Source: Gammaproteobacteria bacterium
GTDB lineage: Bacteria > Pseudomonadota > Gammaproteobacteria > Steroidobacterales > GCA-2729495
Direction: 5' to 3'
Assembly: GCA_021773815.1 (NCBI GenBank)
Contig: JAJFJS010000029.1
Span: forward strand, 1-64,000
DNA length: 64,000 bases
The position numbers and the translations under genes are program-made. Positions within the stretch are counted from its first letter, which is position 1, and each line of letters starts with the position of its first letter. Shown piece by piece: positions 1 through 24,965 of the stretch. Under the pieces are notes generated by a model that had not been told where the DNA came from, searched no databases, and was given only the letters and a program-made list of their open reading frames with translations.

Positions 1-78
1 AGCCGCCCGAGCTACGCTAACTCGATGCCCGCATAAAATTCAAGCGGCGTTGCCGAGGGGTAGCCGACGCCGAAGACC
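1..78. repeat. Partial copy of the dispersed palindromic repeat (family A)
   Basis: The right half (about 41-78) matches the right half of the element at 22634-22744: both have a core of the type GGCGTTKCCGAGGGGTA followed by a GC-rich arm ending GAAGACC/AAAGACC. Positions 1-8 resemble the inner left stem AGCCGCCC of that copy, so the outer left arm lies before the window. It is non-coding. Fold and homology were judged by eye. Confidence 0.6.
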
Positions 79-175
79 GACTCGGGCAAGGGGTGAAACC
101 GTGGCTGCCTGAGAACGCAAAAAAACGTGCTGATGGAAATCTGCGGTGAATCTGCAAACAGGCAGCTGGACAGGA

Positions 176-201
176 TTGCGATACATCATGGTGTATCGCA
201 A
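176..201 (-). terminator. Hairpin just downstream of the DUF423 gene
   Basis: Perfect 10-bp inverted repeat (TTGCGATACA / TGTATCGCAA) with a 6-nt loop, starting 6 nt past the stop of the leftward DUF423 gene. The placement fits a transcript-end hairpin. No clear T tract follows on the minus strand, so it may be a processing or stability hairpin rather than an intrinsic terminator. Confidence 0.45.
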
Positions 202-206
202 CCGGG

Positions 207-590
207 CTATTTCCGCAGGAACACCGCCAGTGCGACGAGCAGCCACGCGAGCATGAAGCTCGAGCCGCCCATCGGGGCGATTTCGACGATGGCCGCCGGC
301 GCGCCGAGTTTCTCCGCGTAGACGCTGCCCGAGAAGACGATGACGCCGAACACGAACAGGCCGCGGGCGATGTCGAGCAGCCTGGACGGCCCCGTCTGCA
401 TGACCAGCAGCGTGATCAGGAGCAGGCCGATGGCATGATAGACCTGCATCTGCACGGCCCATCGCCATGACAGGCGATCGGCCTCGGTCAGGGAATCGGC
501 CAGGCCATGGAATCCGTAGGCGCTCAGCGTCGCGGCGGTCATCAGCAGCAGTGCGCCGATGATCAGGAAGGTCTTGTCGAGTTTCGTCAT
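207..590 (-). CDS. DUF423 (YgdD-like) small membrane protein
   Basis: A 127-residue inner-membrane protein with about four hydrophobic helices (near residues 6-24, 48-64, 70-88, 100-124). The length, the AYGFHGLADSL segment after helix 1 (the GAFGAHGL-like region of the family) and the closing hydrophobic helix match the DUF423/YgdD family. No biochemical function is firmly established for that family. The ATG at 590 is chosen because it precedes the first helix; longer reading in the same frame adds an arginine-rich stretch with no membrane character. It stands alone and diverges from the hemerythrin-like gene. Confidence 0.8.
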   Translation of the reverse strand: MTKLDKTFLIIGALLLMTAATLSAYGFHGLADSLTEADRLSWRWAVQMQVYHAIGLLLITLLVMQTGPSRLLDIARGLFVFGVIVFSGSVYAEKLGAPAAIVEIAPMGGSSFMLAWLLVALAVFLRK

Positions 591-695
591 GACGGCGTCC
601 ACGTGCGGCGAGAAAGGCGTTATTCTAGTCGCACGGACGTGATAACAGGCAACAACAGCAAATATTGGCGATTCCGCGCCGTCGCGCGGGCTCGC

Positions 696-701
696 AGGAG
701 G
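696..701 (+). promoter_or_regulatory. Strong Shine-Dalgarno AGGAGG
   Basis: Consensus AGGAGG seven nucleotides before the ATG at 709. It fixes the start of the hemerythrin-like gene. Confidence 0.8.
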
Positions 702-708
702 AAGCAAT

Positions 709-1260
709 ATGACCAGTTTGATGGAAAGGATCGGCAACGAACGGCGTCGACTGCGCAACGTGAGACAGCGGATGGCCGCGGCGATCGATGTCGGCGCCGA
801 TGGCGATGCGGCATTCGTGCCGTTCTACGTGGCTGCTGCCGATTACATCGATGCGACGATGCAACGGCTGCATGGGCAGGATGTCCGGATGGGCGAGATG
901 ATCGTCGAGAAGGTCGGCGAAATGGACGCTACGATCGAGCGGGCACTGGCGGAACTCGATGATCGGCTCGAGGGGGCGAAGGCGCATCTCAAGCCGTTCC
1001 TGGCGGCGCGTGATGCGGTGCGCGACAACGGCGCCGCGGAGCTCGGGCGCTTCGAGAAAGCTGCGCGCGAGTATTCGGATTTCATCGCTGCCACGATGGG
1101 CCACCATGGCGCAACGAATGACTTGTGCGCGAAGTTGTTCTCGGCGGACGATTGGGAATACATGGCTGCGGTCAGCGATGAGCAGGCGGCCGCGGAGGAA
1201 AAGCTGTTTGCACGGGTCGTCGAGACGACACCCGCGGGCGTTACGGTGCCTGGAGATTGA
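709..1260 (+). CDS. Hemerythrin-like helical protein, ligands mostly missing
   Basis: A 183-residue soluble, largely helical protein with no signal peptide. The order of helices and the late segment (MGHHGATNDLCAKLFSADDW, then a Glu-rich helix) resemble the C-terminal half of bacterial hemerythrin-like HHE proteins, where an H-x3-E pair precedes a 'LFP..LSxxDW' stretch. Only scattered His residues remain (near 55 and 127-128), so a diiron site cannot be confirmed. The start is fixed by AGGAGG. The 3' end overlaps the convergent GGDEF-EAL gene by 20 nt. Function unknown; a degenerate hemerythrin fold is my best reading. Confidence 0.55.
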   Translation: MTSLMERIGNERRRLRNVRQRMAAAIDVGADGDAAFVPFYVAAADYIDATMQRLHGQDVRMGEMIVEKVGEMDATIERALAELDDRLEGAKAHLKPFLAARDAVRDNGAAELGRFEKAAREYSDFIAATMGHHGATNDLCAKLFSADDWEYMAAVSDEQAAAEEKLFARVVETTPAGVTVPGD

Positions 1261-3595
1261 TCGCGTCGAGAACGCTGACGTAGGCCGTACGGTCTTCACT
1301 GTAGTGATTGACCCACTGGCTGAAGGTTTCAGCCGGCATCGGTCGGCTGATCAAGAAACCCTGGGCGCGTTCGCAGCCCATGTTGGCGAGCCAGCGCATC
1401 GCCGGACGTGATTCGACGCCCTCGGCCAGTACCTCGATGCCGAGGTTGTGGGCCAGTTCGATAGTGGCGCGGACGATCGCGACATCCTTGCGATTGTCCG
1501 GCAATTCCGTGACGAAAGACTTGTCGATCTTGAGTTCATCGACCGGCAGGTTGCGGATCCGGGCCATCGACGAGTGTCCGGTGCCGAAATCATCGACGGA
1601 AATCCGGATGCCCAGATCGCGCAGGCATTGCAGGACCACTGTTGCCAGGCCGAAATCATGGAACAGGGCCTGTTCGGTAATTTCGAGCATCAGGTATTTC
1701 GGGTCGAGATCGTGTTCGCGCAGGATCTCCAGGACAATGCGCGGCAGATCCGGGTTCAGGATGTCATAGCCGGAAAGATTGACCGATATCGGCAGGTCGA
1801 TGCCTTCTTCGATCCACAGGCGACACTCGCGAACGGCAGCCGTCAGTACCCATTCGGAAATCAGCGCGACGTTGCCTGATTGCTCGGCGATGGCGACAAA
1901 TTCCAGCGGCGACAGAAAGCCGAGCCTCGGGTGATCCCAGCGAATCAATGCCTCGGCCCCGCAGATGCTGCCATCGGCCAGGTTGACCTTCGGCTGCAGG
2001 TAGAGCTTGAATTCGTTTTCACGCGCTGCGCGCCGCAGGCTGCCCAGGATTTCCAGCCGGCGCGCGTATTGTTCCTCGGTACCGGTTTGATACGCGGCGA
2101 TACGCTCAGGCACGTGGTCGGCCTCCTGCTGTGCGATCGTCGCGCGCAGCAGTAGTTTTTCCGGTTCATCGCCGTCATGCGGGAAGCTGCTGATGCCCAC
2201 GCAGGCCGATGCGCTGATGTTGACGGTGCCGTTGGATACGCCGGCGGCAAGCACGCGAATAATGTCTTCGGCCAGCGCCCACGCGGCCGTCCTGTCGGCC
2301 GTTTCCATGATCAGCAGGAACTCGTCACCATCGAGGCGGGTCAGCACCGTGCCCGATGGAATCGTCGAGCGCAGACGGTCGGTGGCGACGAGCAGGAGTT
2401 CATCACCGATTTCCTGTCCGAACGAGGCGCGTATGTCACGAAATCCGGACAGCCTGACGAGCATGACGCAGACATCGCCGTCCATGGAGCGCTGTTTCTC
2501 GATGGACTCGTCCAGACTACGCATCGCAAGCAGCCGGTTCGGCAGGCCGGTCAATCCGTCGAACTGCGCCTCCTGCACGACCCGGTTCTCGCGTTCCGCG
2601 ATCCGGCTCTGCATGTTGTTGATGGCGGCCGCCAGCCCGGCAAATTCCTCGCTGCGGCGTGCGCCGACCGGCGTCGTGTAGTCGCCGGCACTGATGCGGC
2701 GTGTTGCGGAGATGATGCGTTCCAGCGGCGCGCGCCAGCCGCGCGCCAGCGTTTCGGCGCCGATCAGCGCCAGGATCAGGGCGATGGCGCCGACGATCAG
2801 CGCGATGAGCTGTAGTGTCCGGTAGGGAGCGATGGCGCCGCTCAACGGCGCCTGCAGCAGTATGACGACATCCCGCGCATCGTGCACGAACGGTCGGGCG
2901 CGAACCAGGAAACGTTCGCCACTGACCGTCGCGATCGTCGCATCGATGTTATCCGGGCGAATCAGCATCGCGTCCAGCTCGGCCGCGCCGAGCGCCGCAG
3001 AATCGATCGAACTGGCGACGAGCTCGTGTCGGCGCCCGCTGCGTCCTACGACGGCAACATCCAGCCCGGTGCGTTCATGCAGGAGTCCGACGATCTTCGT
3101 ATCGATACGAAAACCAGTCGACAGCCAGGTTTTTTCCGCCGTTCCCGGTACCGGCAGGGTCAGCATCTCGAAAAAGCGATTATCGACGGCAATGCTCGAG
3201 CGGATGCTGCGGTCGTCGCCGGCCCGTGCAACCAGTCCGGGATAGGCTTTCGCTACGGTATCGTCAGACGTAGCGATGACGCTGCCGCGGTTGTCGAGGA
3301 TCAGCATGAAATCGGCGCCGATGCCGGATGCCGCGGCCGCCAGCCAGGATCGCCGATCGGGTGTTGCGACATCGGTGGCCAGTTCGTCGGCGACACGCGT
3401 GACCGATTTGATCAATGACCGCGTGCGGCCGCGCATGAGTTCGTCGAACAACGCACCGCCGATCGACAGGTTCGTCTGCGCCTGTCGCATGGCATCGCTG
3501 TCGCCCATGATCGAGGTCGCAACCAGCGTGGAAAGCTGGGTCGCGCCGATCGCAAGGACGGCAATAATGACAAATTTCGAACGCAGGTTGTGCAA
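1241..3595 (-). CDS. Membrane sensor with HAMP, GGDEF and EAL domains
   Basis: A 784-residue cyclic-di-GMP turnover protein. A TM segment (9-27), a periplasmic sensory region (about 28-262), a second TM (263-284) and a HAMP-like linker (about 285-340) lead to GGDEF (about 345-500) and EAL (about 515-770) domains. The GGDEF signature reads DGDEF (422-426), a variant found in both active and GTP-binding-only proteins. The EAL domain keeps EAL (548-550), SVNLSG, DDFGTG (668-673), KIDKSF and EGVES, so phosphodiesterase activity is likely. The start codon is TTG, with GGAG seven nt upstream; no better in-frame ATG precedes the first TM. Monocistronic. Confidence 0.92.
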   Translation of the reverse strand: MHNLRSKFVIIAVLAIGATQLSTLVATSIMGDSDAMRQAQTNLSIGGALFDELMRGRTRSLIKSVTRVADELATDVATPDRRSWLAAAASGIGADFMLILDNRGSVIATSDDTVAKAYPGLVARAGDDRSIRSSIAVDNRFFEMLTLPVPGTAEKTWLSTGFRIDTKIVGLLHERTGLDVAVVGRSGRRHELVASSIDSAALGAAELDAMLIRPDNIDATIATVSGERFLVRARPFVHDARDVVILLQAPLSGAIAPYRTLQLIALIVGAIALILALIGAETLARGWRAPLERIISATRRISAGDYTTPVGARRSEEFAGLAAAINNMQSRIAERENRVVQEAQFDGLTGLPNRLLAMRSLDESIEKQRSMDGDVCVMLVRLSGFRDIRASFGQEIGDELLLVATDRLRSTIPSGTVLTRLDGDEFLLIMETADRTAAWALAEDIIRVLAAGVSNGTVNISASACVGISSFPHDGDEPEKLLLRATIAQQEADHVPERIAAYQTGTEEQYARRLEILGSLRRAARENEFKLYLQPKVNLADGSICGAEALIRWDHPRLGFLSPLEFVAIAEQSGNVALISEWVLTAAVRECRLWIEEGIDLPISVNLSGYDILNPDLPRIVLEILREHDLDPKYLMLEITEQALFHDFGLATVVLQCLRDLGIRISVDDFGTGHSSMARIRNLPVDELKIDKSFVTELPDNRKDVAIVRATIELAHNLGIEVLAEGVESRPAMRWLANMGCERAQGFLISRPMPAETFSQWVNHYSEDRTAYVSVLDAINLQAP

Positions 3596-4204
3596 CGGCC
3601 GCTCCGCCGATGGGAATGAAACGCTGCCATCGTAACGACGGTGTCGCCGGGATTATGGGAAATGCGTCACGGACTCACGATACGGTTCCCGAGAAAAGCG
3701 AAGCGGCACAATGCGTTGCAGTAGGCAGCCGCAAGGTACTGCGATCGCCCGGCCGCGTTGCTCTGCGCGGGACACGGAGCCGGGGTCAGCGGTCCGCTCG
3801 GCGCGCAATCCTGCGGCGCTTGTTCGCCTGGCGGTGACCCGGTCGCCGAGCGGCCAACCGGGATATGTCCTGTGCCGTGCCGTCGGCACCGGGCCGTACT
3901 GAGGTGACGGCAACCGACTCCGTCGGCTTATCGCGCCTATCGCGCAAACGGCTGGGAATCGATGGCGTAACAGCAGGTCGCGGCCGTCCGGACTCGCGTC
4001 GTCGGGGCGCGGTTCAAGCGATCCGATGCGCCATACAAAGTTTCGAGTCCGTGTTCCCGTGTAACGGACCTTTGCCCGCGAAGCCCATCTGTGGCGTAAT
4101 GCCGCCTTGCTGAAAGACTTACCTGAAGATTTCACCGGTCGGTTGTTACCGCTCCCGGCGTGCTGGTGAGACTTTCGGGCCAAACAGAATTTAAGGGAGT
4201 TCTG
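3596..4204. other. 609-bp region without a convincing gene
   Basis: It lies between the divergent c-di-GMP gene and the beta-propeller gene. It is GC-rich, and open frames on both strands are arginine/proline-rich low-complexity translations typical of antisense reading, without recognisable domains. The last ~20 nt carry the AAGGGAG ribosome site for the gene at 4205. Promoters for both neighbours must lie here, but I cannot define them. Confidence 0.5.
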
Positions 4205-5140
4205 ATGACTAAAGTATCGACGATGAAGCCTTTTGCACCGGGGGATATCTTTCTCGGTTGCACTTATCTGTGCAATCCGACTGACGACCATGCCGGGGAC
4301 GGTCGCATACTCCAGTACGATCGCAATATGGTGCCGAAGGGGACGCTCTATACGGAAGGAACGACGCATCTCGTCGTCAACCTGCGCTTCGGGCCGGACG
4401 GCGTCCTGTGGGGTTTCGATCCGTTCGCGCACGCGGTCGTTCGCGTCGCGCCGACGGGCGAACAGCTGCCGGCAGGTGATTTCGGTGATCGCGGCTGGGG
4501 CAGCGTCTGCTTTGGCCATGACGGCAGCGTGATACTGAACGAGTACCTGAAAGGCGACAAGCCCTATGAAGGCGGTGACATGCGCACGCTGGCAGGCACG
4601 GACGTCGTCGGTTACGGGCGGATCGCCAAATTTGATGGCGGGTTGAACAAGATTACCGAGTTCGAGACCGACCTGTCTCCGTCGATGACCGGTTTTCACG
4701 GCGTGACGCACAGCGCCATGCATCCGGATGGCCGGCACATGGCATTCATGACCGATCTGGGTATGCGCGTGATGCTCATCGATATCGATACCGGCACGTT
4801 GCTGCCCGACCTGATTCACTACCCGGGCGGTGACGAGTACATGCGCAGGTGGACGACCGGCGTCGCCTACCTTAGCGACGGCACGCTGTGCCTGTTACGC
4901 GGCAGTTTCATCGACTTTATTGCCCCTGACGGCAGTTCGATACGCACGCTGCCGCTGGACGAATACGGCTATGCGATGATCACGTTGTCGACCGATGACC
5001 GGTTTGCATTCGTCACGAATATCTTCACCGGCGTCATGTCCAAGGTCGATCTGGAATCGGGAGAAATCATCGGCACGATCGATACGGGTCTGGCCAAGCC
5101 GTCGCGCAGCCTGGCCGGCGTAGCCGTGTTTCCCGCATAA
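4205..5140 (+). CDS. Beta-propeller (SMP-30/lactonase-like) protein
   Basis: A 311-residue soluble protein without a signal peptide. Repeating blade-like motifs (FGPDGVLWGFDP, FGHDGSVILNEY, MHPDGRHMAFMTD, LSDGTLCLLRG, LSTDDRFAFVTN) point to a six- or seven-bladed propeller of the SMP-30/gluconolactonase or YncE type. Substrate unknown. The ATG at 4205 has GGGAG five nt upstream and is preferred to an upstream in-frame start that lacks one. The RND exporter begins 26 nt downstream on the same strand, so the two may be cotranscribed. Confidence 0.75.
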   Translation: MTKVSTMKPFAPGDIFLGCTYLCNPTDDHAGDGRILQYDRNMVPKGTLYTEGTTHLVVNLRFGPDGVLWGFDPFAHAVVRVAPTGEQLPAGDFGDRGWGSVCFGHDGSVILNEYLKGDKPYEGGDMRTLAGTDVVGYGRIAKFDGGLNKITEFETDLSPSMTGFHGVTHSAMHPDGRHMAFMTDLGMRVMLIDIDTGTLLPDLIHYPGGDEYMRRWTTGVAYLSDGTLCLLRGSFIDFIAPDGSSIRTLPLDEYGYAMITLSTDDRFAFVTNIFTGVMSKVDLESGEIIGTIDTGLAKPSRSLAGVAVFPA

Positions 5141-5166
5141 GCGGGCACAGGGCTGCAGATACGGGT

Positions 5167-7722
5167 ATGCGCACGCTGGTGAATTGGTACGAGGCCCTGT
5201 TTGTTCATCGCGCGCGTCTGGCCTTGTTGTGCGCTGCCGTCGTTATCGCTTTTTTCGCGGTCTTCGCACCGCGATTCCATCTCGACGCATCCGGCGACTC
5301 GCTGTTGCTCGAGAATGACCAGGATCTGCGGTACTACCGGAGTATTCGCGCCCGCTACGGTTCCGACGATTACCTAGTTGTCACGTTCTCGCCGAACGGG
5401 GACCTGTTTTCCGCCCAGACGCTGAAACAGGTCGAGGCGCTGCGGGACGAGCTATCCATGCTCGACGGATTGGCGAGCATCACGACGATACTCGATGTGC
5501 CGCTGATCTCCAGCCCGCCGGTCGCACTCGAGGATCTGCAAATCGAGGTGCCGACGCTGCTCAGCGAACGTACCGACGTCGAACTTGCGCGTCGTGAGCT
5601 GACCAGTAGCTCGCTGTACCGGCAGTTACTGACCAGCATCGATGGCACGACGACCGCGCTGCTGGCGACTTTTCGCCGTGACCCGGCCTATGTCCAGCTA
5701 CTGACCGAGCGGGATGCGTTGCGCGAGAAGCAGCTGACGACCGATCTGACGACGGCCGACAAGCGGCGCATTGCCGAGCTGTCGCCCGCGATCAGTGATT
5801 TTCGCGCCCGGCTGACCTGGCGCCAGCAGAAAGACATCGCCAGCGTGCGCGAGATTCTCGATCGCTATCGTGTGTACGGAGACATCCAGCTCGGCGGTAT
5901 CCCGATGATCGTCACGGACATGCTGGATTTTATTCGTCGTGACATCGTCGTATTCGGCGCCGGTATCCTGGTATTTCTGATCGCGTTGCTGGCGGTTATT
6001 TTCATGCGGCCGCGTTGGGTCGTCCTGTCGATAGTCTGTTGCCTTGCATCGGTTGTCATCATGACCGGCTTGCTCGGGTTGACGGATTTCCCGGTGACCG
6101 TCGTGTCGGCCAATTTCGTCGCGCTGCTGCTGATTTTTTCGCTGTCGATCACGGTTCACCTGATCGTGCGCTACCGCGAGTTGCACGAGCAGAATCCGGA
6201 CGCGGAGCAGGCCTGGCTCGTATCGACGACCCTGCGCGACAAGTTTCTGCCGTGCCTGTTCACTGCGCTGACGACGATGGTTGCCTTCGCGTCGCTGCTG
6301 GTCAGCGGAATCCGTCCAGTCATGGATTTCGGCTGGATGATGGTCACGGGCATGGTGGTCGTGATGGTCATGGCCTTCACCATTTTCCCGGCGGGGCTCA
6401 TGCTGCTTAAGGCCGGCTCGCCGCAGCATCGGCGCTCGATGACAGCGGCCTTCACCGCGATGCTGGCCGGCTGGATCGATCGCCGCCAGAAGACCGTCGC
6501 GGCTGCATTCCTGCTGGTCGCCGCCGTCAGTGTCTACGGCCTGTCGCTACTGACGGTCGAGAATCGATTCATCGATAACTTCAAGGACACTACCGAGATC
6601 TACCGTGGTCTCGTCAAGATCGATCAGGAACTCGGCGGTACGACGCCGCTGGACATCATTATCGATGCAGACCCGGCGCATTTTCAGGCTGCGGACATTG
6701 CGGATGAGCCGACAGAAGACGAGTTCGCGGAAGAGCTCGATGATGAATTTGCCGACGAGTTCGATGAGTTCGCGGAATCCGTCGATGACGGCGATCTGGG
6801 TTCGACCAGCTACTGGTACAACACGTTCCAGCTGCGGACCATCGGTCAGGTCCACGATTATCTCGACAGCCTGCCCGAGACGGGCAAGGTGCTGTCGATA
6901 GCGACGACGATCGATACGCTGCGAACGCTTAACGACAACAAGGAGGTCGATACATTCTGGTTGTCTATTCTGTACAAGAAGCTCCCGCAGAGCGTCAAGC
7001 AGGCGCTGTTCGATCCATATTTGGCGGTCGACGGCAACCAGGTGCGCCTTTCGGTTCGCGTCTTCGAGTCGGATAAGAACCTGCGCCGGGGCGAACTGCT
7101 GGACCGGATCCGCACGCACCTGACGGGTGAGATGGGACTCGCTCCCGAGCGGGTGCATCTGACGGGCATGCTGGTGCTGTACAACAACGTCCTGCAGAGC
7201 CTCTACGAGTCACAGATCATGACGCTCGGATTCGTGTTTGGCGTCATCCTCTTGATGTTCCTGGTCATGTATCGCTCCCTCGCGGTCGCGATTATCGCAC
7301 TGGTGCCGAATATCCTCGCGGCCGGCGCCGTGCTCGGACTGATGGGGTTGCTCGGTATCCCGCTCGACATCATGACCATCACGATTGCCGCGATCGTCAT
7401 CGGCATCGGCGTCGACGACACGATCCATTATCTGCATCGCTTTCGTATCGAGGTAGTGATCGATCACGATTACCATTCCGCTGCGCAGCGGTCGCATGGC
7501 AGCATCGGCCGCGCGATGTATTACACCTCGATCATCATCGCCGTCGGTTTCTCGATCCTGGTGCTGTCCAACTTCCTGCCGACGATTTATTTCGGCATTC
7601 TGACCGGGTTTGCGATGCTGTTCGCCATGGTCGCTAACCTGACAATCCTGCCGCTGTTGCTGATCTGGTTCCGGCCGTTCGGAACCTTGCCGGTTGTTTC
7701 CGAGCCGGCCGAGGCGCCGTGA
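5167..7722 (+). CDS. RND-superfamily (MMPL/COG1033) exporter
   Basis: An 851-residue inner-membrane transporter built of two similar halves: one TM helix (about 18-36), a periplasmic domain, then five TM helices (about 258-415), repeated with a TM at about 440-460 and a helix bundle at about 685-840. The segment GIGVDDTIHYLHRFR in the second half is characteristic of COG1033/MMPL hydrophobe exporters. The second periplasmic domain carries an unusually acidic stretch (residues 513-543). The last three codons and the TGA lie inside the left arm of a palindromic repeat that starts at 7709, so the native C-terminus may have been altered. Substrate unknown; lipids or hopanoids are typical cargoes. 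Confidence 0.88.
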   Translation: MRTLVNWYEALFVHRARLALLCAAVVIAFFAVFAPRFHLDASGDSLLLENDQDLRYYRSIRARYGSDDYLVVTFSPNGDLFSAQTLKQVEALRDELSMLDGLASITTILDVPLISSPPVALEDLQIEVPTLLSERTDVELARRELTSSSLYRQLLTSIDGTTTALLATFRRDPAYVQLLTERDALREKQLTTDLTTADKRRIAELSPAISDFRARLTWRQQKDIASVREILDRYRVYGDIQLGGIPMIVTDMLDFIRRDIVVFGAGILVFLIALLAVIFMRPRWVVLSIVCCLASVVIMTGLLGLTDFPVTVVSANFVALLLIFSLSITVHLIVRYRELHEQNPDAEQAWLVSTTLRDKFLPCLFTALTTMVAFASLLVSGIRPVMDFGWMMVTGMVVVMVMAFTIFPAGLMLLKAGSPQHRRSMTAAFTAMLAGWIDRRQKTVAAAFLLVAAVSVYGLSLLTVENRFIDNFKDTTEIYRGLVKIDQELGGTTPLDIIIDADPAHFQAADIADEPTEDEFAEELDDEFADEFDEFAESVDDGDLGSTSYWYNTFQLRTIGQVHDYLDSLPETGKVLSIATTIDTLRTLNDNKEVDTFWLSILYKKLPQSVKQALFDPYLAVDGNQVRLSVRVFESDKNLRRGELLDRIRTHLTGEMGLAPERVHLTGMLVLYNNVLQSLYESQIMTLGFVFGVILLMFLVMYRSLAVAIIALVPNILAAGAVLGLMGLLGIPLDIMTITIAAIVIGIGVDDTIHYLHRFRIEVVIDHDYHSAAQRSHGSIGRAMYYTSIIIAVGFSILVLSNFLPTIYFGILTGFAMLFAMVANLTILPLLLIWFRPFGTLPVVSEPAEAP

Positions 7723-7816
7723 TATCTCGCGGCAACGCCGCTTGAATCAGTCGAGGCTGTCGACTTGCCTCAGCCCGGGCGGCTGAAGGTTGCCGAGAGA
7801 TGTCCCGGCGCCTCGG
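7709..7816. repeat. Palindromic repeat family A, copy 1
   Basis: About 108 bp with imperfect terminal arms: CCGAGGCGCCGTGATATCTC on the left, and the reverse complement CCGAGGCGCCGGGACATCTC on the right. An inner stem pairs CGGCAACGCCGC with GCGGCTGAAGGTTGCCG. Roughly 20 further nt on the right (to about 7841) are also shared with copy 2. It overlaps the last codons and stop of the RND exporter. Confidence 0.8.
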
Positions 7817-7962
7817 CCTCGGACATATCGTGCCAGGGCTCGCCCAGCCCCTGTTTAGTAAGGCAAATGTCTCATTGCCCTGTCCGGTCCGGTGAGATGA
7901 CCGGGTTGACTGTCGCCGGATTTCTTATCATTCGGAGCCTTTCGGATTCTTCCCTGACCGGG

Positions 7963-8069
7963 CGAGGGGCCGTGATATCTCGCGGCAACGCCGCTTGAAT
8001 CAGTCGAGGCTGTCGACTTGCCTCAGCCCGGGCGGCTGAAGGTTGCCGAGAGATATCCCGGCACCTCGG
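7963..8069. repeat. Palindromic repeat family A, copy 2
   Basis: Nearly identical to copy 1 and in the same orientation, 253 bp further on, with arms around two GATATC sites (at 7974 and 8052). The ~60 nt to its left (about 7918-7962) also resemble the left flank of the copy at 22423 (a T-rich TATCATT stretch, then GCC..TCGGATT), so some copies carry an extended left end. The 470 bp between the RND and DUF934 genes hold only these repeats and the spacer between them. Confidence 0.8.
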
Positions 8070-8192
8070 CCTCGGACATATCGTGCCAGGGCTGTTGCTT
8101 CACATTGCCGGACAGGTGTCCGGTGCAAACAGCGACGCCGAAACCAGCCGTCCGAAACCTCGCACGGTTGCGGGGCGAATTTCCTGGCCGAT

Positions 8193-8702
8193 CTATTTTG
8201 ATGCGCTGGTTCGAGCCTGACGCAGTACCGACGCCGGTCGGCGCCCGTCCACGGCGCCCTGGTACCAGACGCTGAAGTCGCCGCGCGCGGTCTCGAGCTC
8301 GGCCAGCGGGTCGTCACCGGCCAGCTCGAAGGCGTTGAACCCGACGCGTTCCATGTAATGCAGTTGCTCGAGCAGTACGTCACCGATGGCGCGTAACTCG
8401 CCTGAAAAACCGTAACGGTCGCGCAACAGGCGTGCATACGAGTAGGCGCGGCCGTCGCGGAAGGTCGGAAATTCCAGGGCGATCACCGCGAAGTTTTCCA
8501 GATCGTCGGCGATGACCTCCGGGTGCTCGTGACTGGCGAGCACGACCCCGATTGGATCGGGGCGTCGCGTCAGGCGCTGCCAGTGATCCTGCCAGACGGG
8601 CAGCGACACGAGCAGCGCGCCACCGTCGGGAATCGGGTCGTCGCCGTCGATCCGCAGGTAGATATCCTTCGCCGCTTGCCCGTCTTTGATCAGCGTCGTC
8701 AT
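8193..8702 (-). CDS. DUF934 protein of the sulfite-reduction operon
   Basis: A 169-residue soluble protein matching the DUF934/COG3749 family: the conserved FPTFRDGRAYSYARLLRDR segment (about 93-111) and a C-terminal RARGDFSVWYQ-like stretch are diagnostic. In many proteobacteria this family sits directly after cysI; it is required for or linked to assimilatory sulfate reduction, but its reaction is not known. The ATG overlaps the cysI stop by 4 nt (ATGA), indicating translational coupling. No cysH follows; the repeats at 7.7-8.1 kb end the operon. Confidence 0.9.
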   Translation of the reverse strand: MTTLIKDGQAAKDIYLRIDGDDPIPDGGALLVSLPVWQDHWQRLTRRPDPIGVVLASHEHPEVIADDLENFAVIALEFPTFRDGRAYSYARLLRDRYGFSGELRAIGDVLLEQLHYMERVGFNAFELAGDDPLAELETARGDFSVWYQGAVDGRRPASVLRQARTSASK

Positions 8703-10375
8703 GCGACCTGCCTGGTAGTGCCTTGCGGCTCATAGACAACGGCGCGGAACGGTTCGATGCCGACGCGCCGGTAGGTTTGCAGGAAGGTCTCGTCGTCCCC
8801 GCGCAGCGCGAGGTAGGCATCGACAATCCGCTCGATCGCCGCCGGCACGTCGGCCTGCGGCAATCCGCGGCCCAGCCGGTCGCCGAGTGACGGGTTTTCG
8901 TCCGCAGACCCGCCGAGCGTTAGCTGGAAGAACTCCGCGCCACGCTTGTCGACGCCGAGGATGCCGATGTTGCCGACATGATGGTGACCGCAGGCATTCA
9001 TGCAGCCTGAGATATTGATCGTCAGGCTGCCGACCTGCTGCAGCTTGTCCGTGTCGGCAAAATGGCGGCTGAGGTCCTGCGCAATCGGTATCGAGCGGGC
9101 ATTGGCCAGCGAGCAATAATCGAGCCCGGGGCAGGCAATGATGTCAGACGCAAGGCCGATGTTCGGCGTGGCCAGCTCCAGCGTCGATAAGGCCCGCCAC
9201 AGCACGGGCAGGTCGCGCCGACGGACGTCGACGAACGACAGGTTCTGGCGATGATTGATGCGCAATTCCCCGCAGCTGAATCGGTCGGCGAGGTCGGCGA
9301 CGCGCTCCATCTTGTCGGCGGCAAGATCGCCGGGCACGCGGCCGGGCGCCTTCAGTGACAGGTTGACGATCGCGTAGCCGGCGACCTTATGGGCAACCAC
9401 GTTGCTGCGCAGCCACGCGTCGTAAGCGGGGTCGGAAATGCCTGCTGCGGGCGACGGATCATCGCCGGCTGCCGCCCGATCGTAATCGGGCGGTGCGAAA
9501 CAGGCCTGGATCCGCGCGCGTTCCGCATCGTCTATCACCGGGCCGGTGGCGCGGATCTGTTCCCACTCGGCGTCGACCAGTTCGCGGAATCTGTCGATAC
9601 CCAGCGCCGTGACAAGGATCTTGATCCGCGCCTTGTAGATGTTGTCACGGCGTCCGTACAGGTTGTAGACGCGCAGGATCGCCTCGACATACAAGATGAT
9701 GTGTCGCGGCTCGATCCATTGGCGAATCGTCTTGCCGATCGCCGGCGTGCGCCCCTGTCCGCCGCCGACGATGACCTCGAACCCCGGCCGACCCTGTTCG
9801 TCGCGGTACATGCGCAGGCCGATGTCGTGCACGGCGACCGCGGCGCGATCGTGCGGCGAGCCGGTCAGCGCCAGCTTGAACTTGCGCGGCAGGTAGGAGA
9901 ACTCGGGGTTCAGGATCGAATACTGTCGCAGCAGTTCGCACCAGACGCGCGGATCCTCGATCTCATCGGCGGCGCGGCCGGCATAGTGGTCGGCCGTGAC
10001 ATTGCGCACGCAGTTACCGGAGGATTGCATCGTGTTCATTTCGACCGCGGCCAGGTCGGCCATGATATCGGGGGCATCGGCGAGTGCGATCCAGTTGAAC
10101 TGGATGTTCTGGCGGGTCGTGAAGTGACCGTAGCCCCGGTCATAGCGGCGGGCAATCCGCGCCAGTGCGCGCAACTGCGCCGATGACAGGCAGCCGTACG
10201 GGACGTTGATGCGCAGCATGTAGGCGTGCAACTGCAGGTACAGACCATTCATCAGCCGCAGCGGCTTGAACTGGTCCTCGCTGAGTTCGCCGGTCAGGCG
10301 CCGGGCAACCTGACGGCGGAATTGCGCGACGCGCTCGCTGACGAGCGTCCGGTCGAATTCGTCGTAGCGGTACAT
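8699..10375 (-). CDS. cysI: Sulfite/nitrite reductase hemoprotein (CysI-like)
   Basis: A 558-residue siroheme/[4Fe-4S] reductase, probably reducing sulfite to sulfide with six electrons for cysteine synthesis in the cytoplasm. It has the two-fold repeated ferredoxin-like plus siroheme-binding architecture. Cluster and siroheme ligands are visible as CPGLDYC (Cys415, Cys421) and CMNAC (Cys458, Cys462) within NISGCMNACGHHHVGNIG. Basic active-site residues occur around FTTRQNIQF (about 85-93). DUF2849 precedes and DUF934 follows, the common 'cysI-type' assimilatory arrangement, which argues for sulfite rather than nitrite as substrate. Confidence 0.88.
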   Translation of the reverse strand: MYRYDEFDRTLVSERVAQFRRQVARRLTGELSEDQFKPLRLMNGLYLQLHAYMLRINVPYGCLSSAQLRALARIARRYDRGYGHFTTRQNIQFNWIALADAPDIMADLAAVEMNTMQSSGNCVRNVTADHYAGRAADEIEDPRVWCELLRQYSILNPEFSYLPRKFKLALTGSPHDRAAVAVHDIGLRMYRDEQGRPGFEVIVGGGQGRTPAIGKTIRQWIEPRHIILYVEAILRVYNLYGRRDNIYKARIKILVTALGIDRFRELVDAEWEQIRATGPVIDDAERARIQACFAPPDYDRAAAGDDPSPAAGISDPAYDAWLRSNVVAHKVAGYAIVNLSLKAPGRVPGDLAADKMERVADLADRFSCGELRINHRQNLSFVDVRRRDLPVLWRALSTLELATPNIGLASDIIACPGLDYCSLANARSIPIAQDLSRHFADTDKLQQVGSLTINISGCMNACGHHHVGNIGILGVDKRGAEFFQLTLGGSADENPSLGDRLGRGLPQADVPAAIERIVDAYLALRGDDETFLQTYRRVGIEPFRAVVYEPQGTTRQVA

Positions 10376-10381
10376 GCCGGT

Positions 10382-10657
10382 CTACCGTTCGACCGCGATC
10401 GTCGGTCCGTGCGCGCGAATCGACTCGCGCAGCACCGCCGGTTCGTGTGCCGCGCCGAGCGCCGCGACGTCGATCAGGCAGGGGTCGATGATCAGGTTGT
10501 CGCTCTCGTCCGTGCGGGCGTCCGCGAGCCGGCTGTCGGCCACAGCGTTGTCGTCAATCAGTTGCCCCGCGTCGATGTCTGTGACCCAGTTGCCGTCGGC
10601 GGCGCGGAATACGACGCGCCCGTCGATCAGACGATTAGCAATGAGCATCTGTGCCAT
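10382..10657 (-). CDS. DUF2849 protein, first gene of the cysI operon
   Basis: A 91-residue protein. The opening ANRLIDGRVVFRAADGNWV and the acidic VxDP segment match DUF2849, a small family almost always found immediately upstream of cysI-like genes; its role is unproven. Six nt separate its stop from the cysI start. It is therefore the leader gene of a three-gene operon with the promoter in 10658-10927. Confidence 0.85.
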   Translation of the reverse strand: MAQMLIANRLIDGRVVFRAADGNWVTDIDAGQLIDDNAVADSRLADARTDESDNLIIDPCLIDVAALGAAHEPAVLRESIRAHGPTIAVER

Positions 10658-16815: not shown

Positions 16816-17269
16816 TGTGCGGGCCGCGCGCGAGGCGGACTGCGAGGCAATCTACCGGGTTCACGTGGCGGCGATACGCGCATTGCCCGGCGGTACACAG
16901 GGCAAGGCCGGAATCGAGAAGTGGCTGGCCGGCCGGCGGCCGTCCGGATACGCGCGCACGATGGATGATGAGTCATTCGTCGTCGCCGATGCCGGTGACG
17001 ACATCATCGGGTGGGGCGCGCTGAGCGTACCGAAGCAGGAGATCACCAACGTCTTTGTCGCCCCCGCGCATCATCGCCGGCGGGTCGGCACCGCGATCAT
17101 CGCGCGCCTCGAAAATCTGGCGCGTGCCGCGGGGATCGATGTCGTGCAGCTGCAGGCCACCGGCACCGCGATCGAATTCTATCTCGCCAACGGCTACCAG
17201 TCGGATCCGCCCGTCGGTCCCGGCGCCGAATGGGCATTGATGAAAAAACGCCTGGCACCGGCGGGCTGA
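16808..17269 (+). CDS. GNAT-family N-acetyltransferase
   Basis: About 153 residues starting at GTG 16808, within the 3' end of the GST gene. The opening VRAAREADCEAIYRVH is the GNAT alpha1 region; ITNVFVAPAHHRRRVGTAII contains the (Q/R)xxGxG/A-type acetyl-CoA pyrophosphate loop (RRRVGTA), and the ending AIEFYLANGYQ is the typical beta6-alpha4 segment. It would transfer acetyl from acetyl-CoA to an amine; the substrate is not predictable. The start is uncertain (GTG at 16808 or 16817) and has only a weak ribosome site, consistent with coupling. Confidence 0.8.
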   Translation: MVDVRAAREADCEAIYRVHVAAIRALPGGTQGKAGIEKWLAGRRPSGYARTMDDESFVVADAGDDIIGWGALSVPKQEITNVFVAPAHHRRRVGTAIIARLENLARAAGIDVVQLQATGTAIEFYLANGYQSDPPVGPGAEWALMKKRLAPAG

Positions 17270-17397
17270 TCGGCCCCCGGAGCGGCAATGTGGCCGCGGG
17301 AATGCTGCGACGGGCTAAACGTCGGCCGCGCCCTTCGCTACAATCGACAACCCGCCGCCGTCGGTGCGGCCCGCCATAACGATTCAACAGGTTCTGC

Positions 17398-18396
17398 ATG
17401 CCGCTGATTGCCCATTCCGGATTACCGGCGTTCGAGTTCCTGCGCCACGAGGGCTGCGCCGTCGTCGCGCCGCGCCGCGCGCCGCGCGCGCTGCCGTCGT
17501 TGCGTATCGGCCTGCTGAACCTGATGCCGGATGCGGCGTTGCAGGCGACTGAGCGCCAGTTTCTGCGGTTGATCGACGCCAGCGGGTCGGTCGCGAATCT
17601 ATGGGTGTATCCGTTCGCCGTCGAGGCCGGTTACCGGGCGGACGTCGCCCGGGCGCATATCGAGACGCATTACGCGACGTTTGGCGAATTGCAGGATCGC
17701 GGCCTCGATGCGCTGATCATCACCGGCGCCAATCCGGCCTGCGATGACATCACCGCGGAACCGTTCTGGGGGCCGATGATCGAGGCAATCGACTGGGGAC
17801 GCAGCGAGACGCAATCGGTGCTGTGCTCGTGCCTCGCGACGCACGCGGTGCTGCACCATGATCACGGCGCGGTGCGCCTGGAATTACCGCAGCGCCGCTG
17901 GGGCGTGTATGAGCACGAGATCCTGATCCCCGGACATCCGCTGCTCGCCGGCGTGACCGCGCCCGTGTCGGCGCCGCATTCGCATCGCTACGCCGTGTCT
18001 CGGGCACAAATGGAGGCCGCGGGCCTGACCGTGCTTATCGACAGCGCCGAGGCCGGTGTGCACCTGGCCGTCGGCGCCGATGCGCGGCGCCTGGTCATGT
18101 TTCAGGGCCACCCGGAATACGATGCGGTCAGCCTGCTCAAGGAATACAAGCGCGAGGTACAGCGGTTCCTGACCGGCAACCGGCAGAGTTATCCGCCGTT
18201 TCCCGAGCATTATTTCGATCGACCCGCAAAGGACCGCCTCGATGCCTATCAGCAGCGCGTTACCGAGTGCGATTTCGAACAGGCGACGCTGCCGGCATTC
18301 CCCGAGGACCAACTCACACCCCGTTGCGCCGACACCTGGAGCGACGCGGGCCGGGTTATCTATCGCAACTGGCTGGGGCAATTGGCTGACCCCTAG
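17398..18396 (+). CDS. metA: Homoserine O-acyltransferase, MetA type
   Basis: 332 residues; acylates homoserine in the first committed step of methionine synthesis. LRIGLLNLMPDAALQATERQ, the GVYEHE segment, the probable nucleophile in CSCLATHA (second Cys, about 144) and the catalytic-dyad region QGHPEYD (His/Glu) are all present. MetA enzymes use succinyl- or acetyl-CoA, and I would not assign the acyl donor by eye: the specificity position near TGANPA is neither the classical Gly nor Glu. ATG 17398 has AGG eight nt upstream. Its last ~54 nt recur at 18595-18648 beyond a TIR element. Confidence 0.9.
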   Translation: MPLIAHSGLPAFEFLRHEGCAVVAPRRAPRALPSLRIGLLNLMPDAALQATERQFLRLIDASGSVANLWVYPFAVEAGYRADVARAHIETHYATFGELQDRGLDALIITGANPACDDITAEPFWGPMIEAIDWGRSETQSVLCSCLATHAVLHHDHGAVRLELPQRRWGVYEHEILIPGHPLLAGVTAPVSAPHSHRYAVSRAQMEAAGLTVLIDSAEAGVHLAVGADARRLVMFQGHPEYDAVSLLKEYKREVQRFLTGNRQSYPPFPEHYFDRPAKDRLDAYQQRVTECDFEQATLPAFPEDQLTPRCADTWSDAGRVIYRNWLGQLADP

Positions 18397-18413
18397 CGAG
18401 CCCCCTCCGCTGG

Positions 18414-18589
18414 TGCCGGTGTACAGTTTCTTTAGTTTCTGAAGTTATTCCCGGCCCCGATGGAATCAGGTTTTTATCGTGTTATCAGATCTTTAGGGCC
18501 GAAATATCCAATCAATAACTTAAGAACCTTTACACCGGCACCAATCATAAATAACATAAGAAACTTAAGAACCTTTACACCGGCACCAA
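18414..18589. mobile_element. Degenerate small TIR element (family B) behind metA
   Basis: The left end (18414-18452) starts TGGTGCCGGTGTACAG and continues as an AT-rich TTAAG-type arm. Two inverted right ends follow, at 18512-18544 and about 18549-18589, each ending TTTACACCGGCACCAA. The same termini bound the 354-bp element at 24612-24965. No transposase is encoded. The doubled right end and base differences suggest an older, internally rearranged copy. Confidence 0.75.
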
Positions 18590-18594
18590 TCCTT

Positions 18595-18654
18595 TGGAGC
18601 GACGCCGGTCGCGCGATCTATCGCAACTGGCTGGGGCAATTGGCCGAAAATTAG
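18595..18654 (+). pseudogene. Duplicated 3' end of metA
   Basis: 18595-18648 matches 18337-18390 at 47 of 54 positions by eye, including 29 consecutive identical bases. It would encode WSDAGRAIYRNWLGQLAEN then TAG, against WSDAGRVIYRNWLGQLADP in the intact gene. It lies in no gene of its own, directly right of the family B element, and is best read as a relic of the metA end displaced or acquired when the element inserted or recombined. Confidence 0.8.
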
Positions 18655-18699
18655 CCGTGCTGGCGCGCTGATGCCAGCGCCAATCTCAGGGACCAGGCC

Positions 18700-20301
18700 T
18701 CAACTGAATTCTTCGCGCAGTTTTTTCTTGTCGATCTTGCCGACGCTCGTCAGCGGGATGGTCGTGACGAATTCGATGCGTTCCGGCATTGCCCAGCGCG
18801 ACAGGATGCCGCGGTCGACGTAGCCGCGAACGTGCGCCCGGATCGCGTCGGCATCGGCGTGCTCCGTATCGACCGGTACGATCAGCGCGAGCGGTCGCTC
18901 GCCCCAGGTTGCGTCGGGGACGCCGATGACGGCGACGCGGTCGACGGCATCATGTTGTGAAATCAGACCTTCGAGTTCGAGCGACGAGATCCATTCGCCG
19001 CCCGACTTGATGACATCCTTGATCCGGTCGGTGATTTGCAAAAAGCCTTCCGCATCGATGTGCCCGACATCACCCGTGTGCAGGTACCCGTCGGACCACA
19101 GTTCTTCGGAGCGCTCTTGCTCGCCGAGATAGCCGGGAGTCAGCCAGGGCGCGCGCACGCAGACCTCCCCGGTGGTGCGTCCGTCGCGGGGCATTTCGTT
19201 GCCGTCCGGATCCACGACGCGCAGGTCCACGAGGGGCACCGGCCGTCCGGTCTTGCAGCGCAGTTGCAGCCGTTGGTCGTCGTCACGCGCGAGCATGTCA
19301 TTGGTCAGCGTTGCCGCCGTCAGTAACGGGCAGGTTTCGGACATGCCGTAGGCGGCATAGATATCGATGCCCAGATCGAGCGCGCGGCGAGCCAGGCCCG
19401 GCGGTAGCGCGGCGCCGCCGATGATGACCTTCCAGCGGGACAGGTCAGTAGTCTGTGCGGCCGGATGGCTGAGCAGCATCTGCAGGATCGTCGGCACGCA
19501 GTGCGACAGTGTTACGCTCTCGGCGGCGATCAGCCGCAGCAGTGCGGCGGGCTCATAGCGGCCCGGATAGACCTGTTTGGCGCCGAGCATCGTGGCGACA
19601 TACGGCGCGCCCCACGCGTGGACATGGAACATTGGCGTCAGCGGCATGTAGACGTCGTCGCGGTGAAACCGGCCGTGGCCGTCGACAGCGTTGACGCCCG
19701 CCATGAAACCGAGGGAATGCAGCACCAGTTGCCGATGCGTGAAATACACGCCTTTCGGCAAGCCGGTCGTGCCGGTCGTGTAAAACGTCGTCGCCCGCGT
19801 GCGCTCGTCGAAATCCGGGAACGCGTAATCGGGATCGGCCGCCTCGAGCAGCGCCTCGTAATCGGCGAGCGGCACGATGCGGATGTCGCGATCGAAGTCG
19901 TCGCGAATCTCGTCGATGATCGGCATGAAGTCCGCGTGGACGAAGATCAGGTCATCGTGCGCGTGGTTGATTGTGTACAGAATCTGTCCGGGTGACAGCC
20001 GGATGTTGATCGTGTGCAGCACGGCGCCGGTCATCGGTACGGCAAAAAAACATTCCAGATAGCGATGGCTGTCCCAGTCCATGACAGCGACGGTGTCGCC
20101 GGGCCGGATGCCGAATGTCCCCAGCGCATTGGCGAGCCGCGCGAGGCGCGCGCCGAACGTCGCGTAGTCATGGCGCCGTTGGTCAGCGTAGACGATCTCG
20201 GTATCGCGTGCCTGCGTCAATGGCACATGCAGGAGTTGGCGGATCAGCAACGGGTAGTCGTAGGCCGAAGCGGCCGGCGTCAGGCGTTCGTCGGTCTTCA
20301 T
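18700..20301 (-). CDS. Fatty-acid-CoA ligase (AMP-forming)
   Basis: 533 residues, an ANL-superfamily adenylating enzyme: P-loop TTGTTGLPKG (175-184), the A5-like YGMSETCP segment, TGDVGHIDAEGF and ITDRIKDVIKSGGEW, and the C-terminal catalytic Lys in SVGKIDKKKL. It most resembles medium/long-chain acyl-CoA synthetases (fatty acid + ATP + CoA to acyl-CoA). Substrate length not determinable. ATG 20301 overlaps the stop of the upstream thioredoxin-like gene by 4 nt, which decides the start against a GTG 36 nt earlier. Confidence 0.9.
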   Translation of the reverse strand: MKTDERLTPAASAYDYPLLIRQLLHVPLTQARDTEIVYADQRRHDYATFGARLARLANALGTFGIRPGDTVAVMDWDSHRYLECFFAVPMTGAVLHTINIRLSPGQILYTINHAHDDLIFVHADFMPIIDEIRDDFDRDIRIVPLADYEALLEAADPDYAFPDFDERTRATTFYTTGTTGLPKGVYFTHRQLVLHSLGFMAGVNAVDGHGRFHRDDVYMPLTPMFHVHAWGAPYVATMLGAKQVYPGRYEPAALLRLIAAESVTLSHCVPTILQMLLSHPAAQTTDLSRWKVIIGGAALPPGLARRALDLGIDIYAAYGMSETCPLLTAATLTNDMLARDDDQRLQLRCKTGRPVPLVDLRVVDPDGNEMPRDGRTTGEVCVRAPWLTPGYLGEQERSEELWSDGYLHTGDVGHIDAEGFLQITDRIKDVIKSGGEWISSLELEGLISQHDAVDRVAVIGVPDATWGERPLALIVPVDTEHADADAIRAHVRGYVDRGILSRWAMPERIEFVTTIPLTSVGKIDKKKLREEFS

Positions 20302-20879
20302 TCGTGTTGCTGCGCCGGCTCGTTGCCCGGCTTCCACTTGATATTGCAGCCGATGCTCGGGCGTTGATCGGGCGAGACCGGCGTACCGTTCAGCAACGCG
20401 TCGACGGCGCGGCGCAGATCGGCGCCGGTGACCGGCACATCGTTGCCGGGTCGGGAGGCGTCGAACTGGCCGCGATAGGCCAGCTTGCGGGAGCTGTCAT
20501 AGAGGAAGAAATCCGGCGTGCAGGCGGCCCGGTAGGCCAGCGCCGTCTGCTGGGTCTCGTCGAACAGGTACGGGAAGGAATAGCCGTGTTTCCTGGCCTC
20601 GATGCGCATCTGCGCCGGGTCGTCATCGGGGTGAGTCGACACGTCGTTGGCGTTGATTGCGACGACCGCCAGGCCGCGTGGCTGATACTCGTCAACGAAT
20701 CGCGTAAAACCGGCGCGGATATGCTGTACATAGGGGCAGTGGTTGCACCAGAACACGACCAGCAGGGCCGCGGCCGCGTCGAAATTGTCGAGGGTGACGA
20801 GTTTGCCGTTCGTGTCCGGCAGCGCGAATGATGCGGCCGGCGTACTGAGCCCGGGCATCGTCGATGGCGTCAGCGCCAT
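20298..20879 (-). CDS. Thioredoxin-like (AhpC/TSA-related) protein
   Basis: 193 residues, cytoplasmic. Thioredoxin fold with the CXXC motif in VVFWCNHCPYVQ (Cys45, Cys48), LAVVAINANDVSTHPDD, and cis-Pro in ACTPDFFLYD. This matches the PRX-like subfamily of thioredoxin-domain proteins whose members carry WCxHCPY. Expected role: thiol redox or peroxide reduction; the partner is unknown. Cotranscribed and coupled with the acyl-CoA ligase (ATGA). Confidence 0.85.
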   Translation of the reverse strand: MALTPSTMPGLSTPAASFALPDTNGKLVTLDNFDAAAALLVVFWCNHCPYVQHIRAGFTRFVDEYQPRGLAVVAINANDVSTHPDDDPAQMRIEARKHGYSFPYLFDETQQTALAYRAACTPDFFLYDSSRKLAYRGQFDASRPGNDVPVTGADLRRAVDALLNGTPVSPDQRPSIGCNIKWKPGNEPAQQHE

Positions 20880-24611: not shown

Positions 24612-24965
24612 TTGGTGCCGGTGTACAGTTTCTTAAGTTTCTTAAGTTATTGAACGGAGAACGGTTCCGGCCGCAGCATTTCGCACCCGCCTCTAGAAGC
24701 GGGCGGAATGCAGAGTGGATCAGAAAACGAGACTATTTCACGCTCTGAGACGACGCATCCAGTGAGGGCGGGCCATCTGACTCATTGAAAAATCGAACGT
24801 CAGGCTTTAGTTCAAAACTTCGAATCAGGTGGCCAGAAATTTAGCTTTTGCCTGGCATGCCGATTCTGCAGCGGTACCGGTTTACGGATCATGCCGCCCA
24901 GAAGCAATGGGATTTAGGCCAGTCAATAACTTAAGAAACTTAAGAAACTGTACACCGGCACCAAG
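24612..24965. mobile_element. 354-bp MITE-like element with perfect 42-bp TIRs (family B)
   Basis: 24612-24653 and 24924-24965 are exact reverse complements, beginning TTGGTGCCGGTGTACAG and containing TTTCTTAAG repeats. The 270-bp interior is non-coding. It fills most of the 449-bp gap between the UbiD gene and the ABC permease. No transposase is present, so a non-autonomous element is inferred. A target-site duplication is not evident. Termini are shared with the element behind metA. Confidence 0.85.

Follow-up and report, generated by a model that had tools for sequence, protein, structure and literature searches.

The 3′ end of metA occurs twice in direct orientation on either side of a small TIR element in the window (the whole 64,000-nucleotide stretch analysed), and the same scar recurs at no fewer than four further genes of this genome, a pattern suggesting that gene ends are time and again broken, copied and patched by such elements together with recombination, although the scarred loci need not have one common cause. 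The metA tail duplication reported in an earlier note proved real, with 47 of 54 bases identical (18337-18390 vs. 18595-18648); the copies lie either side of a 180-nt element whose ends are inverted. In a repeat search the direct pair spans 53 nt (18337-18389 and 18595-18647, 89% identity, 258 nt apart), and it shares an identical 29-nt core with diverging sequence on its flanks. Its local alignment score of 41, against 12-22 in reversed-sequence controls from metA and other loci, demonstrates that the repeat did not arise by chance. The intact protein ends in ...WSDAGRVIYRNWLGQLADP, whilst the far tail translates as WSDAGRAIYRNWLGQLAEN, and up to the stop codon the two differ at 10 of 57 nt, seven of these at codon position 3. 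The changes exhibit no A bias and adenine-specific error-prone mutagenesis was rejected. The likeness ends at the stop codon itself, the stretches that follow the two stops showing no significant similarity to each other, and the convergent acyl-CoA ligase gene starts ~45 nt beyond the far stop (Table 1). A metA protein search of the genome found no further copy of the tail, and neither the genome nor its congener contains a second metA gene.

Table 1. Features of the metA locus, in window coordinates.
Feature	Position	Strand	Evidence
metA, homoserine O-succinyltransferase, intact, 332 aa	17398..18396	+	Pfam HTS 4.7e-67; NCBIfam NF003776 384.8 bits (cutoff 358)
Near (working) metA tail, last 19 codons and stop	18337..18396	+	Direct repeat, 89% identical to far copy
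Degenerate non-autonomous TIR element (family B of the earlier note), right end doubled at 18517-18546	18411..18588	.	Inverted repeat; genome-wide family matches; hairpin z
Far relic metA tail, WSDAGRAIYRNWLGQLAEN*, stop 18652-18654	18595..18654	+	Direct repeat; metA protein match 80% of 20 aa, E 1.4e-4
AMP-dependent acyl-CoA ligase, convergent to metA	18700..20337	-	Pfam AMP-binding 2e-74

The element between the tails carries 39-nt inverted arms (18411-18449 and 18550-18588, 87% complementary), the right end having a tandem second copy, and folds as one long hairpin (z of -5.7 as RNA and -5.1 as DNA); six bases, ATCCTT, separate its end from the far tail, and Rfam gave no match in 17200-20400. 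A search of the genome with a 331-base stretch around it gave 83 matches, for the most part to element ends, and the element is a degenerate, non-autonomous and putatively mobile member of a repeat family made by a TIR-flanked IS200/REP-type tyrosine transposase. The family consensus end is TGGTGCCGGTGTACAGTTTCTTAAGTTTCTTAAGTTATT; the consensus end TGGTGCCGGTGTACAGTTTCTTAAG lacks a terminal GTAG, so the TIR is unrelated to GTAG REPs. One full-length copy is present (L033:2488-3497, contig C27), in which TIR ends at 2488 and 3497, identical at 25 of 25 positions over their first 25 nt, flank a 299-aa Y1 transposase (2508-3407; Pfam Y1_Tnp 4.7e-11; NCBIfam REP_Tyr_transpos 82.6 bits, cutoff 80) with a visible NHMH motif. 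Shorter copies of ~100-350 nt are non-autonomous, some keeping remains of the transposase gene, and the TIRs form a genome-wide repeat family, occurring singly, paired or clustered, with the same ends present in G004, which belongs to another genus of the bacterial family. A clean, two-ended member of 351 nt with fully matching ends lies elsewhere in the window (24613-24963).

Y1 transposons with long flanking TIRs are known as TIRtrons, whose TIRs form repeat families (Di Nocera et al. 2013, PMC3733652). The family at metA shares with TIRtron/TIRYT elements an IS200-type (Y1, HUH) transposase between long, directly adjoining TIRs that have no relation to GTAG REPs, and moderately abundant TIR repeats found single, paired and clustered, but the excerpted text of that paper says nothing of gene 3′ ends copied next to the repeats. 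As its ends lack GTAG, the family is not classed as a REPIN, although it works like one. The earlier note had also suggested that the element arose inside, or carried, a metA end, which is not supported, as other family copies lack metA and the tail is found nowhere else in the genome. metA sequence as a feature of the family was rejected, being absent from all other family copies, as was gene-tail capture by every element copy, since most family B copies have no repeat across them.

In the congener G001 metA is 68% identical and has a single end, followed by an unrelated short palindrome; G001 being the sole congener with metA, this single end makes the copy lineage-specific. The same convergent ligase neighbours metA in G001 and so marks the native downstream side of the gene; the near and far tails match this only close relative at 37 and 35 of 54 bases respectively, and at such equal distances do not tell which copy is native. 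No locus with both metA ends and no element was seen, G001 being the one informative relative. The metA-ligase spacer of G001 (contig C55, L010) holds a different inverted repeat (TAGCTGAATTAGCTTATT...), so this spacer repeatedly takes up palindromes. No metA was found in G002 (80% complete) or G003 (78% complete), none above 48-52% identity in any family-set genome other than G001, no further close metA in an enlarged family search of 40 genomes, and only homologues of ≤49% identity in a scan of genome contigs. Across family f1 metA is unmatched in most genomes, a patchy spread which suggests gain or repeated loss.

Local direct repeats were sought in 858 kb, widened to 1.25 Mb (~1.3 Mb), covering 933 gene tails and 904 gene heads, with genes predicted from codon usage by a simple script; about a third of the genome, which is in 149 contigs, was examined, with enrichment for contigs carrying these elements. 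Three clear intergenic tail copies were present in the 1.25 Mb: metA, a MacB-like permease (139 nt, 89% identity, copies 1545 nt apart) and an ABC-F ATPase (138 nt, 94% identity). The 904 gene heads yielded no intergenic copies, save repeats inside one internally repetitive gene, a tail-only pattern which is just mildly surprising, as elements lie twice as often downstream of genes as upstream (46 vs. 23). All three genes have a downstream palindromic element of family B or of another family, C (ATTGGTGTCWGACACCAAT), the permease element being a weak family B match, compared with 4.8% of genes overall; as the sampled contigs were largely picked for family B ends or transposases, this association is suggestive. 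A look at the surroundings of 20 family C loci added two cases, an HDAC-like and a ferredoxin-like gene (names read off the translations, not from a family match), both with family C palindromes flanking the copy on each side, and the recurrence at other genes was in this way found partly through searching around elements. One element family occupies both sides of the far copy at the ABC-F, HDAC-like and ferredoxin-like genes, in ABC-F with the element in register in both units, and at these three and metA the outer end of the element lies at most about 7 nt from the start of the far copy. The permease far copy holds a stop codon (TAG). Orthologous ends are single in four relatives for the permease (G002, where the reading ran past the stop, was left out) and in two for ABC-F. 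A TauD gene forms a weaker sixth case: its end (L024 1990-2460) has two tandem element-plus-tail units in which the elements are identical and the tails differ at ~8 of 46 positions, a combination that simple duplication does not explain. In 200 kb from each of two control genomes (G008 and G006) no intergenic tail duplication was found, an amount of sequence too small to give significance.

Several further repeats were set aside. At window 7678-8093, two near-identical copies of a second palindromic element (TATCTCGCGGCAACGCCGC...; 7678-7840 and 7931-8093) are present, the first supplying the stop codon of an 851-aa open-reading frame (5167-7722); a tail duplication here was rejected, as the repeat is mainly this inverted-repeat element and the extra upstream likeness is weak. 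Repeats in L027 (two homologous convergent monooxygenase genes), L137 (two PEP-CTERM-like genes) and L038 and L136 (another palindrome family) were likewise rejected. Elsewhere, a 14.7-kb contig (C146, L147) exhibits dense GGTGTC/GGGGTC palindromes and several 148-237 nt tandem repeats over positions 1-10400. At 6432-7274 of this contig a 124-nt repeat flanks a second REP-type transposase, which at 69.2 bits falls short of the 80-bit cutoff. In L028 (909-2154) an element end and ~100-nt segment are repeated either side of a glycosyltransferase gene.

The differences between paired tails bear most directly on how the scars arose. A decaying duplicate predicts that more than half of the differences are nonsynonymous, yet across the five pairs 15 nonsynonymous differences were observed against 25-27 expected under neutral decay (P from <3.4e-4, none of 3000 simulations, to 0.001, by transition bias and constraint settings; the simulations give both branches the same time and use simple mutation models). 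Taken singly, P was 0.0005 for the HDAC-like gene, 0.011 for the permease and 0.044 for metA (0.09 under other assumptions), whilst the ABC-F and ferredoxin-like pairs fit neutral decay. Two functional alleles are thus the better reading of the five-pair set, rather than a gene end with a decaying duplicate, with metA by itself marginal.

The main and strong rival to such an allelic origin is tandem duplication in place, in which slippage or template switching at the hairpin copied the metA tail and element together, the second tail then decaying and the second element being lost; we consider this quite possible, if somewhat doubtful. In P. fluorescens SBW25, ordered clusters most often consist of REPINs repeated in tandem together with their flanks (Bertels and Rainey 2011, PMC3116915), and clusters of REPs in which flanking DNA is reiterated are a general phenomenon (PMC3733652). 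Gene-free tandem repeats containing elements are common in the present genome too, and the ABC-F locus, with its 94% identical tail, neutral-looking changes and element in both units, fits duplication well. The scars resemble these REPIN clusters in having a unit of flank and hairpin element in tandem, but the cluster repeats are described as nearly identical (PMC3116915), whereas the flanks here are gene ends, diverged by 6-14% and in coding-like fashion at several loci. At metA the tails are 87% alike and similarity stops at the stop codon, and no significant second element was found past the far tail, the best match being equalled by 34% of shuffles. Tandem duplication needs that second element, and would also have to produce a pooled divergence too synonymous for a neutrally decaying second copy.

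We tentatively favour, at a little short of an even chance, a reading in which the old metA 3′ end survives as the far copy, and the near copy is a second metA 3′ end, of diverged sequence, that was joined to the gene via the element. A TIR element of the REP/IS200-type family would first have sat in or at the metA 3′ end in one lineage, severing the last 19 codons; DNA from a related strain, with intact metA followed by another copy of this element, would then have recombined through one crossover in the body of metA and one in the shared element, the product being metA with the donor tail, a hybrid element and the stranded old tail. The sequence of these steps, the donor and the identity of the native copy are our inference. 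Rescue of this kind is favoured by tail differences too synonymous for neutral decay of one copy, and would account for the direct orientation, for the position of the element against the old tail and for the coding-like divergence; the outer element end adjoins the start of the far copy in four cases, as expected at an insertion point. It needs no second element after the far metA tail, and where one element family lies on both sides of the far copy the recipient would also have had a downstream copy. The single orthologous ends in relatives of metA, the permease and ABC-F support it further. The ends of the metA element are of different subtypes (left GTACAGTTTC, right GTAAAGGTTC, 22 of 25 positions alike), whilst in nine of 12 other two-ended copies they are alike at 24-25 of 25, and the element therefore looks like a hybrid; rescue accounts for this mismatch as for the missing second element, but ordinary decay could also yield it. 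Also against rescue count the six bases (ATCCTT) that part the element end from the far tail, the equal distance of both tails from G001, the fit of the ABC-F and ferredoxin-like pairs to neutral decay and a recurrence found in part by searching near elements; polarised changes fall mostly on the far copy in ABC-F and the permease, and none of the genomes compared contains the intermediate state, with the element inside metA, or a donor allele. The earlier note's interpretation is supported in part, its proposal of insertion at the gene end and restoration of a diverged copy by recombination being the best fit to the single end in G001, the mostly synonymous differences and the recurrent scar.

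Known routes to adjacent gene ends offer partial parallels. Homology-facilitated illegitimate recombination (e.g. PMC3240628) works through one homologous junction and one of another kind, and donor and recipient copies may thereby come to lie next to each other, whereas at metA the second junction would lie at the shared element and could be homologous too. Alternatively, a second, diverged metA (from a merodiploid or paralogue) may once have stood downstream, a deletion from the element leaving its last 54 nt; this would explain the direct orientation and coding-like divergence, and the TAG of the permease far copy is what a gene remnant would hold, but it is improbable, as neither genome nor congener has a second metA and a whole-gene duplicate would be required at each of five loci. 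An assembly artefact joining two strains is very unlikely: the assembly has 149 contigs, some of which end in element copies, but the direct, not inverted, join of element and tail needs spanning reads, and the same architecture is found at five loci with different breakpoints.

Phages and islands that integrate into gene 3′ ends, such as icd, restore the gene end and leave the old end on the far side, and restoration of this kind is typical of integrative elements. The metA scar is similar in its restored end and old far end, and its identical 29-nt core with diverging flanks would suit attL and attR sites of an integrative element later shrunk to a hairpin. This origin is the least probable of all, as between the tails there is no integrase gene or cargo, the content being the 180-nt element alone, which belongs to a transposase family with many other sites.

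Dispersed palindromic TIR repeats may, we suggest with some reserve, serve as portable homology arms: where one copy has damaged a gene end, a second copy lying downstream of an intact allele would allow recombination to mend the gene, which would leave an arrangement of new tail, element and old tail genome-wide. If rescue is the true origin, gene-end scars beside miniature elements would hold a record of earlier insertions and of the allelic exchange by which they were repaired, would allow element damage and homologous rescue to be counted in uncultured bacteria, and would partly explain why elements sit just past stop codons. If the scars instead arose by tandem duplication, REPIN-like clusters would copy pieces of neighbouring genes and thereby supply raw material for new gene ends.
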